Part shown: piece by piece, positions 18,016-23,824 of the stretch
Numbering within the stretch: position 1 is the first letter of the stretch
How the letters are laid out: each line of letters begins with the position of its first letter
Assembly (NCBI GenBank): GCA_944326055.1
Contig: CALVCT010000068.1
Coordinates: 1-42,193 of the forward strand
Source: an uncultured Erysipelotrichaceae bacterium
GTDB taxonomy: Bacteria; Bacillota_I; Bacilli_A; Erysipelotrichales; Erysipelotrichaceae
Length of the DNA stretch: 42,193 nt
Reading direction: 5' to 3'
Position numbers and translations under genes: made by a program
The notes under the pieces: model-generated
Databases searched by the model: none
Told to the model about the DNA's origin: nothing
The model's input: the letters and a program-made list of their open reading frames with translations, nothing else

Positions 18016-18021
18016 TATAAT
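18016..18021 (+). promoter_or_regulatory. -10 box of the HPrK-like gene, predicted leaderless
   Basis: TATAAT at 18016-18021 ends 7 nt before the ATG at 18029. There is no Shine-Dalgarno and the -35 is weak (TTTCAT at 17993-17998). Confidence 0.55.
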
Positions 18022-18028
18022 CACATGT

Positions 18029-19711
18029 ATGGATACATTATATATCAAAAAACGTTTGGCTTTGATCGATTTTACTAAAGCCTACTATGATAACTATGAA
18101 GAGCTCTTATCTTCTAAAGAGTTCAAGACCTTTTTGGGTGCATTCTTAGATGATCTTAAGAAAAGTGATCCAGTGCTCTACACTTGGCTTGAGAGGTTTG
18201 GTGAAAGGGAGGCCATTATCGAGCATCTTATCATCACGCTAAAATATCTGACGGTCATCAGTTATGATGAGACGACTTCTTTGAACAAGCACGAAATCCC
18301 GATCATGTTGAATATCGTGGAGAAAGCTTATAACTTCTGGCGTGATCTGCATCGTTTTTCGATCATCTATTCCAAAGAAGACAATGGTCTTCTCATGTCA
18401 CGTTTTATTGCTTCTGATGTCGCTTTCAATGAGCTGATCATCTCTTTTTATCGCCTATGCGAAGAGAAACTACAAGGTCATCGTAACTTCGTCTATCGTC
18501 AATTACAAGCTGGTACGAATGCTGCCCTATTTCTTTCAAGAGCTAAGACAGCTTTGCCTGAGAAATATGATGTCTTAGCTAAAGTCCCATTTGTGACAAA
18601 AGTCATGATGCGCTCACCAATGATCATCCATCTAGATCACAATAAGCGTCTTGGCACTTTTTTAGAGACAAAGAGCGATCCACTTGGCAAAGGACAGTAT
18701 CGTGATTTTATCTGTTATCCGATCTTAGTTGGTGAGTGTTTGACTTTCGTCTATTTCCATAAGGATTTCATGGCTAGTGCCATCGGACTTGCGAATCTTT
18801 TTGAGTTTGCTCCTCCTGAGCTATGGCACAAGAAACCTGACTGTATCATCCTTTTTGGTGTCAAAGACAATAAGAAAGACACTGTTTATTATCATGATGT
18901 AGAAAATGATATCTATGTCGGTAAGATCTCGTATCAGCCGATCATTGAATACTTTGGTTATTTCAAGAAGATGGCTCTAACTTTACACAATCTTGTGATG
19001 ATGAGAAGAGGCTATCTACCGATACATGGGGCGATGCTTGAGATAAGACTGAAAGATGGTAAGACAAGAGGCGTTTGTCTGATGGGCGATAGTGGTGCTG
19101 GTAAGTCAGAGACGATCGAAGCTATGAATAAGATCGCTGAGCTTATCGAAGCGCAAGTCGTCATCTTTGATGACATGGGCGTCATGTATGTGAAAGATGG
19201 GGAAGTCTATGCGAAGGGCACAGAGATCGGTGCTTTCGTCAGACTTGATGATCTCGATAGTAGCGCGATGTATCGTGATATCGATAGATCGATCTTCTTC
19301 AATCCTGGAAACAATAACTCACGTGTCATCACGCCAGCGAGCCCTTATTCTGTCGTCATCGCGCCGCATAAAGTCGATATCTTCTTATATGCCAATAACT
19401 ATGATGATAAGAAGGGGCTTAGAGTGATAGATGATCTAAATGAGGTCAAAGATATCTATGTCCGTGGGAAGAGATTCGCTTTAGGTACGACAAATGAAGT
19501 CGGCATCTCTGAGACTTATTTCGCTAATCCTTTCGGCCCGATGCAAGAGAAGGAGCGATGTGATGTCCTTATCGATAAAGTGCTCAAGGCTTGTAAGGAA
19601 AGCAATGTCAAACTTGGCGAGATCTATACGAATCTTGGACTTAAAGATAAAGGTGAAGGTGGTATCATCGACGCCGCAAGAGCACTGATCGATCTGATCA
19701 AAGAGTCATGA
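18029..19711 (+). CDS. HPr kinase/PEPCK-superfamily P-loop protein, substrate unknown
   Basis: 560 aa. The C-terminal half (about 335-510) carries a P-loop GDSGAGKSE (353-361, K359), matching the HPr-kinase form GDSGxGKSE, preceded by the histidine motif LPIHGAMLEI and followed by an acidic pair in VVIFDDMGVMYV, as in HPrK and PEPCK. TYFANPFGPM lies near the C-terminus. The N-terminal 330 residues are a helical region not found in HprK (about 310 aa in all). It is far larger than HprK and lacks the usual ATP-PEPCK GLSGTGKTT form, so it probably phosphorylates a protein or small molecule I cannot name. Its stop overlaps a ZIP transporter start by 4 nt. Confidence 0.75.
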   Translation: MDTLYIKKRLALIDFTKAYYDNYEELLSSKEFKTFLGAFLDDLKKSDPVLYTWLERFGEREAIIEHLIITLKYLTVISYDETTSLNKHEIPIMLNIVEKAYNFWRDLHRFSIIYSKEDNGLLMSRFIASDVAFNELIISFYRLCEEKLQGHRNFVYRQLQAGTNAALFLSRAKTALPEKYDVLAKVPFVTKVMMRSPMIIHLDHNKRLGTFLETKSDPLGKGQYRDFICYPILVGECLTFVYFHKDFMASAIGLANLFEFAPPELWHKKPDCIILFGVKDNKKDTVYYHDVENDIYVGKISYQPIIEYFGYFKKMALTLHNLVMMRRGYLPIHGAMLEIRLKDGKTRGVCLMGDSGAGKSETIEAMNKIAELIEAQVVIFDDMGVMYVKDGEVYAKGTEIGAFVRLDDLDSSAMYRDIDRSIFFNPGNNNSRVITPASPYSVVIAPHKVDIFLYANNYDDKKGLRVIDDLNEVKDIYVRGKRFALGTTNEVGISETYFANPFGPMQEKERCDVLIDKVLKACKESNVKLGEIYTNLGLKDKGEGGIIDAARALIDLIKES

Positions 19712-20460
19712 TCCTTAAGCTTCTTATACCATTTATCGGTACGACACTTGGCTCAGCTTGTGTCTTCTTAGTGCACAAAGAAAAACTCGATGAGCGCATC
19801 GAGAAGGCTTTTTTAGGGTTTGCAAGCGGCGTGATGGTCGCTGCATCCTTCTTTTCGCTGCTTCTTCCATCTTTAGATAGTGGTGATATCACTATGGCTG
19901 TGATCGGCTTACTATCAGGAATGGGTTTTCTTCTTTTGATGGATAGCCTTTTGCCACATCTGCACTTGCATACTGATGAACCAGAGGGCCTTAAGACGAA
20001 AAAGAGATTATCGAAAGTCTTCATGATGTTTATGGCGGTGACGTTGCATAATGTGCCAGAGGGGGCAGCTGCAGGCATCGCGATGGTCTCAGGTACTGAT
20101 ATCATAAGTGAGAGTGCCAGTCTAGCACTGCTCATCGGTATCGCGATCCAAAATTTCCCTGAAGGAGCGATCGTCGCCTTACCTTTAAGAACAAGTGGCA
20201 TGTCTCGCTTCAAAGCTTTTCTTTATGGAACAGCTACAGGGGCTGTTGAACCTGTGGCGGCACTATTGATGTTTGTGATAGCACCGATGATCACGCCTTT
20301 TATGCCTTTGGCGCTGAGTTTCGCTGCAGGAGCTATGTTATATGTCGTGATCGAAGAACTCATACCAGAAGCTAGTGTCGGTAAACATTCTAATATCGCT
20401 ACAGTGGCTTTTGCTTTAGGTCTGGCATTGATGATGGTCTTGGATGTGACATTGTCTTGA
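19708..20460 (+). CDS. ZIP-family divalent metal transporter
   Basis: 250 aa, about eight membrane helices. The two ZIP metal-site motifs are present: AVTLHNVPEGAAAG in helix 4 and IQNFPEGAIVAL in helix 5, with a histidine-containing cytoplasmic loop (LLPHLHLHTDEP) between helices 3 and 4. The family moves Zn(II), Fe(II) or Mn(II) into the cytoplasm. The 4-nt overlap with the HPrK-like kinase gene means the two are made together, possibly so that the kinase has its metal or controls uptake. That link is inference. ZupT/GufA-like subgroup. Confidence 0.9.
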   Translation: MILKLLIPFIGTTLGSACVFLVHKEKLDERIEKAFLGFASGVMVAASFFSLLLPSLDSGDITMAVIGLLSGMGFLLLMDSLLPHLHLHTDEPEGLKTKKRLSKVFMMFMAVTLHNVPEGAAAGIAMVSGTDIISESASLALLIGIAIQNFPEGAIVALPLRTSGMSRFKAFLYGTATGAVEPVAALLMFVIAPMITPFMPLALSFAAGAMLYVVIEELIPEASVGKHSNIATVAFALGLALMMVLDVTLS

Positions 20461-20493: not shown

Positions 20494-20509
20494 GGAGGCT
20501 TTTGCCTCC
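20494..20509. terminator. Bidirectional terminator between the ZIP gene and ispG
   Basis: GGAGGC (20494-20499), TTTT loop, GCCTCC (20504-20509), with T-rich sequence on the exits of both strands. It serves two convergent genes. Confidence 0.85.
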
Positions 20510-22239: not shown

Positions 22240-23824
22240 ATGAAGCTCCTATTTAAGTATTTTCTAGATAGTGTAATAAAGTTTCCTAACTTTTTTATTG
22301 GTTCTCTTTTTATGTGTATAATGTGCGCGTTATGCACAGCTTCTTTGCCAATATTACTGCAGAACACCTTGAATGATGTGACATCGTTATCTGATGGGTT
22401 TTATATACAGATTTTGCTGATAATAATCGTATTAGTATTATCTATCGTATTGGAGATCTGTAAGTACATCTCTTTAGATAAAATGGGTGGTAATTACATT
22501 TCTAGTCTTCTTTCAAGACTCGAAAAAGCACTTTTAGATCTAGATGAACTTTCGATCAACAAATACGGAAAAAACAAGATCGACCACATTCTGTACTCTG
22601 ATGTGCTCGATGTTTTTAGAGTAATAGGGAATTTTTTACCAAGCATTACCACTTCGATCTTGATCTCGATTTTGTTGTTTGTGATATCTGCCATCATCGA
22701 TGTCAAAGTTGCTGTATTTCTCATATCAGCAGATCTGATTGGATTATCGATATCTTATATTTCTAAGAATAAGATCAGGAATACTTCATCTAACACAAAC
22801 AAAATAATAAAAGAGTTACATTTGCTACTTGAGGATTTCACAAGTACGATGTCATTTATCAAAGTCAATGGTCTAGGTCGATATTATTCTGAAAGGACTA
22901 CAAACTGTATCAACGATTTTATATCTTCATCTATAAGTGAGGATAAGACTATCTACTTTTATGGCGGCTTGATGAGTAAGATCATCTCGCTGTTGCAAAT
23001 ACTATTTTCAATCATATTAGCGGCTATGATCTCAGACAATACTGTATACCTTGATATTCGATCTAGCTATGAATGAAACAGGAAAGATCGAAACTTTATT
23101 GAACCAGATCAATAGGTCTTTTGTGTGTTTTAAAAATGTTGACGATATTCTCGGTAATATCGAACATTACTGTTCAAAAGGGATCATACTTTCTTCAATA
23201 GATCATCTAGATGTTCGTGTAGATGGTTTTAGCTATAGCGATGATGGGGAAGATATCCTCTCAAATATCGATCTCCATCTTACTAGAGGAGACACGATGA
23301 TGTTGAAGGGCAAGAATGGTTCTGGCAAAAGTACACTTTTAAAATTGATCGTCAGAATAATAGGTAACTTTTCAGGTTCGATCAAATTAAACGATATCGA
23401 TATAAAAGATGTTGATGTGAACAGTCTGTATGACAATATCTTATATGTATCTCAAAGCGATTATTTTGTTGGGGAAACGATATACGACTATCTATGTCTT
23501 ACAAGTCATAGAATCATCGATAAAAATGAATTGGTGAGGCTATTTGATGATCTTGGTCTAAATGTTGACATAGATACAGCTATAGATACGCTTGCATCAA
23601 ATCTTTCTGGTGGCCAAAGAAAGAAGTTACAGATCGCCAGGATCTTACTATCTAAAGATAAATCAGTGATCATTATAGATGAAGTCGATGCTGGCCTTGA
23701 TACTGAATCTAAAAAAATATATGAAGAGACCATAAATGGTATTGCTGCTAGTAAAAATAAGATCATGATCATGATCCAACACACAGACAACAACATACGA
23801 TACAATAAAGAGCTCTATTTATAA
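22240..23824 (+). pseudogene. ABC exporter half-transporter split by a frameshift
   Basis: Two frames together give about 530 residues, the usual length of a fused membrane-ATPase exporter. Frame one (22240-23076, 278 aa) has about five to six membrane helices and a large cytoplasmic loop. It ends at DNTVYLDIRSSYE. Frame two (open before 23051 to 23824) continues the expected linker, FDLAMNETGKIETLLNQINR, into an intact ATPase: Walker A GKNGSGKST, QSDYFVGETIYDYL, signature LSGGQRKKLQIARIL, Walker B IIIDEVDAGLD and the switch histidine in IQHT. The frames overlap 26 nt with no ribosome site for the second. A single +1 shift near 23040-23075 explains it. A sequencing error or programmed shift is possible; the substrate is unknown. 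Confidence 0.75.

Follow-up and report, generated by a model that had tools for sequence, protein, structure and literature searches.

The closest described systems are the ATP-dependent phosphoenolpyruvate carboxykinases (ATP-PEPCK; PF01293, EC 4.1.1.49), with structures from T. thermophilus (2pc9/1j3b) and E. coli PckA (1aq2), the GTP-dependent enzymes (GTP-PEPCK; PF00821, EC 4.1.1.32) and, by its P-loop, HPr kinase (HprK; PF07475). The PEPCK reaction, its CO2 site and its needs for Mn2+/Mg2+ have been summarised (PMC8100219). Papers on lactobacilli use the PckA/pck name without assays (PMC3022021, PMC7911632), and we liken their proteins to the family described below by name only. One plasmid copy from L. 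fermentum (AYP99509.1), 42% identical to our protein over 96% of the query, is annotated "phosphoenolpyruvate carboxykinase". Our literature search, which left subscription papers mostly outside, returned no characterisation or assay of this family.

The window (the whole stretch of DNA analysed, 42,193 nucleotides) encodes on its forward strand a divergent PEPCK-like enzyme of 560 amino acids, which starts with ATG and occupies positions 18029..19711. The sequence-only reading had reported a 560-residue frame with the P-loop GDSGAGKSE, and both are present, the motif being residues 353-361 (19085..19111, forward strand). Full-length homologues, nearly always in single copy, were found in 45 of the 60 related genomes, and we thus regard the frame as a real gene; its start codon is supported by homologues that begin at the same place. 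In the phylum sample, strong-scoring homologues occur in 61 of 295 genomes, and a scan of genome contigs gave at least 475 relatives among the matches listed, with carriers in Erysipelotrichaceae, Mogibacterium, Peptostreptococcus, Clostridium, Anaerococcus, Turicibacter, Limosilactobacillus, Levilactobacillus, Companilactobacillus and others. A tree built from 117 sequences groups them largely by taxon. One homologue is plasmid-borne, and a search for phage homologues returned none. The gene is widely kept and no local oddity. A TATAAT sequence at window positions 18016-18021 lies 7 bp 5′ of the start codon, inside the 49-bp gap to a divergent gene, and could yield a leaderless transcript; it is absent from the promoter-scan list.

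An AlphaFold2 model of the full-length protein, built on a 24-sequence alignment of the family, reached a pLDDT of 85.5 and a pTM of 0.85, and the best 50 rows of a Foldseek search with it were all PEPCKs. When the model was compared with T. thermophilus ATP-PEPCK by VIA, 341 residues aligned at 3.0 Å with a Z score of 19.4, and residues 176-560 superposed on chain residues 3-455. This span indicates that both PEPCK domains are present, so the model, Foldseek and VIA together reveal the two-domain fold. GTP-PEPCK has the same fold (Z ~17, ~375 residues by VIA), and PF00821 matches 1 of the 24 family members (E=0.041). Searches of the PDB by sequence only gave P-loop matches alone, to ABC transporters, ChlI and HprK. 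A weak match to DUF4914 (PF16260) appears in 10 of the 24 members (best E=3.8e-4), and from these sequence matches DUF4914 is perhaps another branch of the PEPCK superfamily.

The model also redefines the layout of the chain. Previously, some 330 N-terminal residues had been set aside as a region of undefined role, which is too large. The PEPCK N-terminal domain occupies residues ~166-306 (18524..18946, forward strand), with the VIA alignment running from model residue ~170, and the C-terminal catalytic domain occupies residues 307-560 (18947..19708, forward strand). This leaves residues 1-165 (18029..18523, forward strand) as an added, mostly helical domain, in which R142, R157 and Q158 are near-invariant. 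Modelled alone, on an alignment without one plasmid-derived row, these residues were predicted confidently (pLDDT 88). Structure prediction thus placed part of the region in the PEPCK fold, but gave the rest no significant fold match: residues 1-172 alone yielded a best Foldseek E of 0.68 and a best VIA Z of 6.3, to globins, a resemblance that in the model may be merely a shared helix arrangement. Three shorter, distant paralogues (G035:C146:1446-2549, G279:C18:40260-41198 and G326:C9:28317-28937, in open frames of 479-489 amino acids) match from about residue 163 onward and, by sequence, seem to lack the helical domain.

To compare the active sites, the protein was aligned in local mode (hhalign) with a profile of canonical PEPCKs taken from related genomes, giving E=2e-6 over 205 columns and residues 306-534. 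In this alignment, Y308-F-G310-Y-F-K313-K314 (18950..18970) faces the canonical Y-S-G-E-I-K-K, H333 (19025..19027) faces the His of M-H-C-S-A/S-N, the two P-loops pair, and N430-S-R432-V (R432, 19322..19324) faces N-T-R-V; D381-D382 (19169..19174) pairs by motif with the D-D of L-I-G-D-D, as the putative counterpart of the kinase-2 Asp pair. Numbers and roles at these positions, all on the forward strand, follow E. coli PEPCK: the counterparts of Tyr207, Gly209, Lys212, Lys213, His232 (a metal ligand), P-loop Lys254 and Arg333 are all kept, as is, by motif, that of Asp269. R207 (18647-18649, forward strand), in the PEPCK N-terminal domain, is likely the counterpart of Arg65. Across 117 homologues, Bacillota-wide, Y308, G310, K313, K314, H333, K359, D381, D382, R432 and R207 are invariant. 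Most of these homologues were retrieved with search patterns that included the P-loop and FANPFG motifs, so the conservation of these two motifs is not independent evidence, whereas that of the other residues is.

Against this shared core stand clear differences from ATP-PEPCK. Both fold domains (~340 residues) and the active-site Tyr, Gly, Lys-Lys, His, P-loop Lys, Asp-Asp and Arg are common to the two, but sequence identity is only ~13-15%, the P-loop is HprK-like, a domain is added at the N terminus, and the chain stops at PEPCK chain residue ~455-466, so that the final stretch of PEPCK has no counterpart. Many further residues are invariant within the 117 homologues and specific to the family, among them E399, R405, D407, D408, N457 and E490. 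The 560-residue protein scores 17.7 bits against PF01293, below the Pfam cut-off of 26.5, and 27.3 against NF006821, for which the cut-off is 369; such a cut-off is a curator's threshold and not a defining biochemical feature. Family members tested fall far below the NCBIfam PEPCK models and mostly below the Pfam cut-off, which a few relatives just pass.

We then considered which other enzymes of PEP and oxaloacetate the source genome encodes (1.38 Mb, 98.5% complete). Family searches, positive in control genomes, detected in it no canonical ATP-PEPCK, PEP carboxylase, pyruvate carboxylase/OAD, Ldh/Mdh C-domain (malate/lactate dehydrogenase) or malic enzyme; the PEPCK search covered the ATP type. 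In the family of the source genome, canonical PEPCK is present in 0 of 22 genomes with the PEPCK-like gene and in 6 of 14 without it, a mutual exclusion with a Fisher p of 0.0015 (0.016 by genus), calculated without phylogenetic correction. A full canonical PEPCK is missing from 24 of 27 named carriers, one of which (Family XIII, G358) has a divergent third type. Outside one family, f2, the phylum sample shows an overlap with canonical PEPCK of 0 (51 with 9), for a chance expectation of only ~1.6. Members of f2 usually have both proteins, so the PEPCK-like protein does not simply replace the canonical one in all lineages.

The most widely shared neighbour is an aspartate aminotransferase (AspAT)-like gene (PF00155; 16774..17979, reverse strand), divergently transcribed and separated from the PEPCK-like gene by the gap noted above. 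Its R-N-I-W-S-N aligns with R-A-N-Y-S-N of E. coli AspAT, as also in the two nearest structures, and the distal-carboxylate Arg (Arg292) is kept. It adjoins the PEPCK-like gene in every member of the genus where the contig allows. Elsewhere, an aminotransferase gene lies directly upstream in the same direction (L086, 1-bp gap; L110, ~22-bp gap), divergently (L081) or at a distance of 4-6 kb (L049, L052, G025 and G028). In Clostridium, Pfam assignments gave the order aconitase, isocitrate dehydrogenase, argG, argH and PEPCK-like gene in L099, and argG and argH precede the gene in L092 and L111 as well. The aminotransferase and argG-argH would plausibly work alongside an enzyme that provides or consumes oxaloacetate for aspartate.

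From the predicted fold, the conserved active-site positions, the gene neighbourhood and the undetected alternative anaplerotic enzymes, we reasoned that the protein probably represents a divergent, unrecognised class of PEPCK, interconverting PEP and oxaloacetate at the oxaloacetate/aspartate node. The enzyme would combine a two-domain PEPCK core (~170-560) with a helical domain of residues 1-165 presumably added to it. It would most likely convert PEP, CO2 and a nucleoside diphosphate to oxaloacetate and a nucleoside triphosphate, reversibly, with Mn2+ in the active site. ATP is the favoured phosphoryl donor, and GTP or PPi could also serve. We favour carboxylation, from PEP to oxaloacetate, because the searches of this small genome turned up no other source of oxaloacetate, and the divergent AspAT-like enzyme would turn the product into aspartate. 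If so, the family would supply a missing step of central metabolism in many gut Erysipelotrichia, clostridia and lactobacilli, which seem, by standard profile searches, to have no enzyme linking PEP and oxaloacetate, and it would be overlooked by metabolic models that rely on Pfam or NCBIfam cut-offs. A lineage of PEPCKs whose P-loop is HprK-like would also help to relate the PEPCK and HprK families.

A true PEPCK could instead work mainly in decarboxylation, taking aspartate through oxaloacetate to PEP for aspartate catabolism. Such a role has been proposed, from annotation, for PckA of L. bulgaricus (PMC3022021), and the reaction is near equilibrium, its direction varying among organisms (PMC8100219); against it, an enzyme of this kind would have no evident source of oxaloacetate here, as neither PEP carboxylase nor pyruvate carboxylase was found. 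We consider this direction improbable, and, being a variant of the main reading, its chance is already contained in the one given to that reading.

It is similarly doubtful that the protein is a PEPCK-fold kinase acting on another small substrate near aspartate/arginine metabolism, which would make the PEPCK name wrong. An HprK-type P-loop with Glu361, the many family-specific invariant residues, the private N-terminal domain and the coexistence with canonical PEPCK in f2 would all suit such a kinase. However, every mappable residue of the oxaloacetate, Mn and phosphate sites is kept, which is unexpected for a changed reaction, and the conversion between PEP and oxaloacetate in the source genome would be left unexplained. 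The sequence-only reading had proposed an uncharacterised kinase acting on a metabolite. Of this, a P-loop enzyme of the PEPCK/HprK superfamily stands, a metabolite substrate is possible, and no characterised close relative was found.

With about the same low probability, the family stands apart within the PEPCK superfamily as a class of its own, marked by the HprK-type P-loop and the private N-terminal domain and differing from known PEPCKs in its substrate or its phosphoryl donor. It could then catalyse a novel reaction at the oxaloacetate/aspartate node or use PPi as donor, and would have spread among Erysipelotrichia, Clostridia and Lactobacillaceae, its PEPCK name being a borrowed one.

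The P-loop had also been described as of HPr-kinase form. The motif is indeed HprK-like, but the fold and active site suggest PEPCK chemistry rather than an HPr-type protein kinase. HprK shares with the protein its H-G and G-x-S-G-x-G-K-S-E motifs, a likeness that ends after 28 columns (E=1.1e-5), and the protein has neither the length nor the N-terminal domain of HprK. That short likeness, a score of 12.8 bits against PF07475 (the HprK C-terminal kinase domain; cut-off 33.3) and a separate HprK in the same genome (G000:C73:1265-1774) led us to reject HprK identity. A regulatory protein kinase of HprK type controlling a ZIP transporter or metal uptake is accordingly very improbable: beyond the P-loop and H-G motifs it has in its favour the overlap with the ZIP gene, and it is opposed by the complete PEPCK fold, with its substrate domain, by the separate HprK and by a ZIP pairing found in one genus, most carriers having been seen with other neighbours.

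The ZIP-family metal transporter (250 amino acids; 19708..20460, forward strand; PF02535 Zip, E=8.6e-20) begins inside the last codons of the PEPCK-like gene, whose stop overlaps the ZIP start as had been noted, the two frames sharing the 4 bases ATGA, and is probably co-transcribed with it. A terminator-like hairpin at 20494..20509 lies between ZIP and the convergent ispG. ZIP directly follows the PEPCK-like gene in G000, G003, G004, G007 and G008; one B12-radical SAM gene is inserted between them in G001 and G005, and no ZIP follows in G006. Outside the genus, ZIP was seen only in L078, distant and divergent. The survey of the pair in other genomes thus confined it to one genus and found it broken even there, in G001, G005 and G006; the coupling claim thus fails the test that the sequence-only reading had set for it, and the suggested control of metal uptake is unsupported. 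ZIP is a genus-level companion only, and coupling to it was rejected as the key to function since the pairing is not conserved; there is better support for the AspAT-like aminotransferase as a partner and, in certain clostridia, for argG-argH. One may speculate that the Mn2+ requirement of PEPCK explains the local pairing. The gene directly downstream in the three exceptions encodes a B12-binding radical SAM protein (DUF4080; L174:259-1863 in G001, L041:1225-2832 in G005 and L173:3350-4975 in G006).

Several minor observations were made along the way. A full-length homologue at G231:C18:71726-73429 contains two in-frame TGA codons, and this sequence suggests that the lineage reads TGA as an amino acid. 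Homologues in L088 (a Methanovirga MAG) and L110 (a Holosporaceae MAG) lie on contigs labelled archaeal and alphaproteobacterial, under MAG names of insect-gut type; these contigs are probably misbinned Bacillota, with transfer as the alternative. Frames of ~550-650 amino acids in G083, G101, G107, G153, G158, G177, G210, G258, G281, G017 and G358 match PF01293 at ~50-75 bits over most of the profile length and, judging from these matches, apparently form a separate third PEPCK-like class, which coexists with the 560-residue type in G101 and G153. Farther along the window, at 22240-23824, an ABC exporter appears to be divided between two frames (22240-23076 and 23051-23824) that overlap by 26 bases in different reading frames, through a frameshift or a sequencing error or as two subunits.
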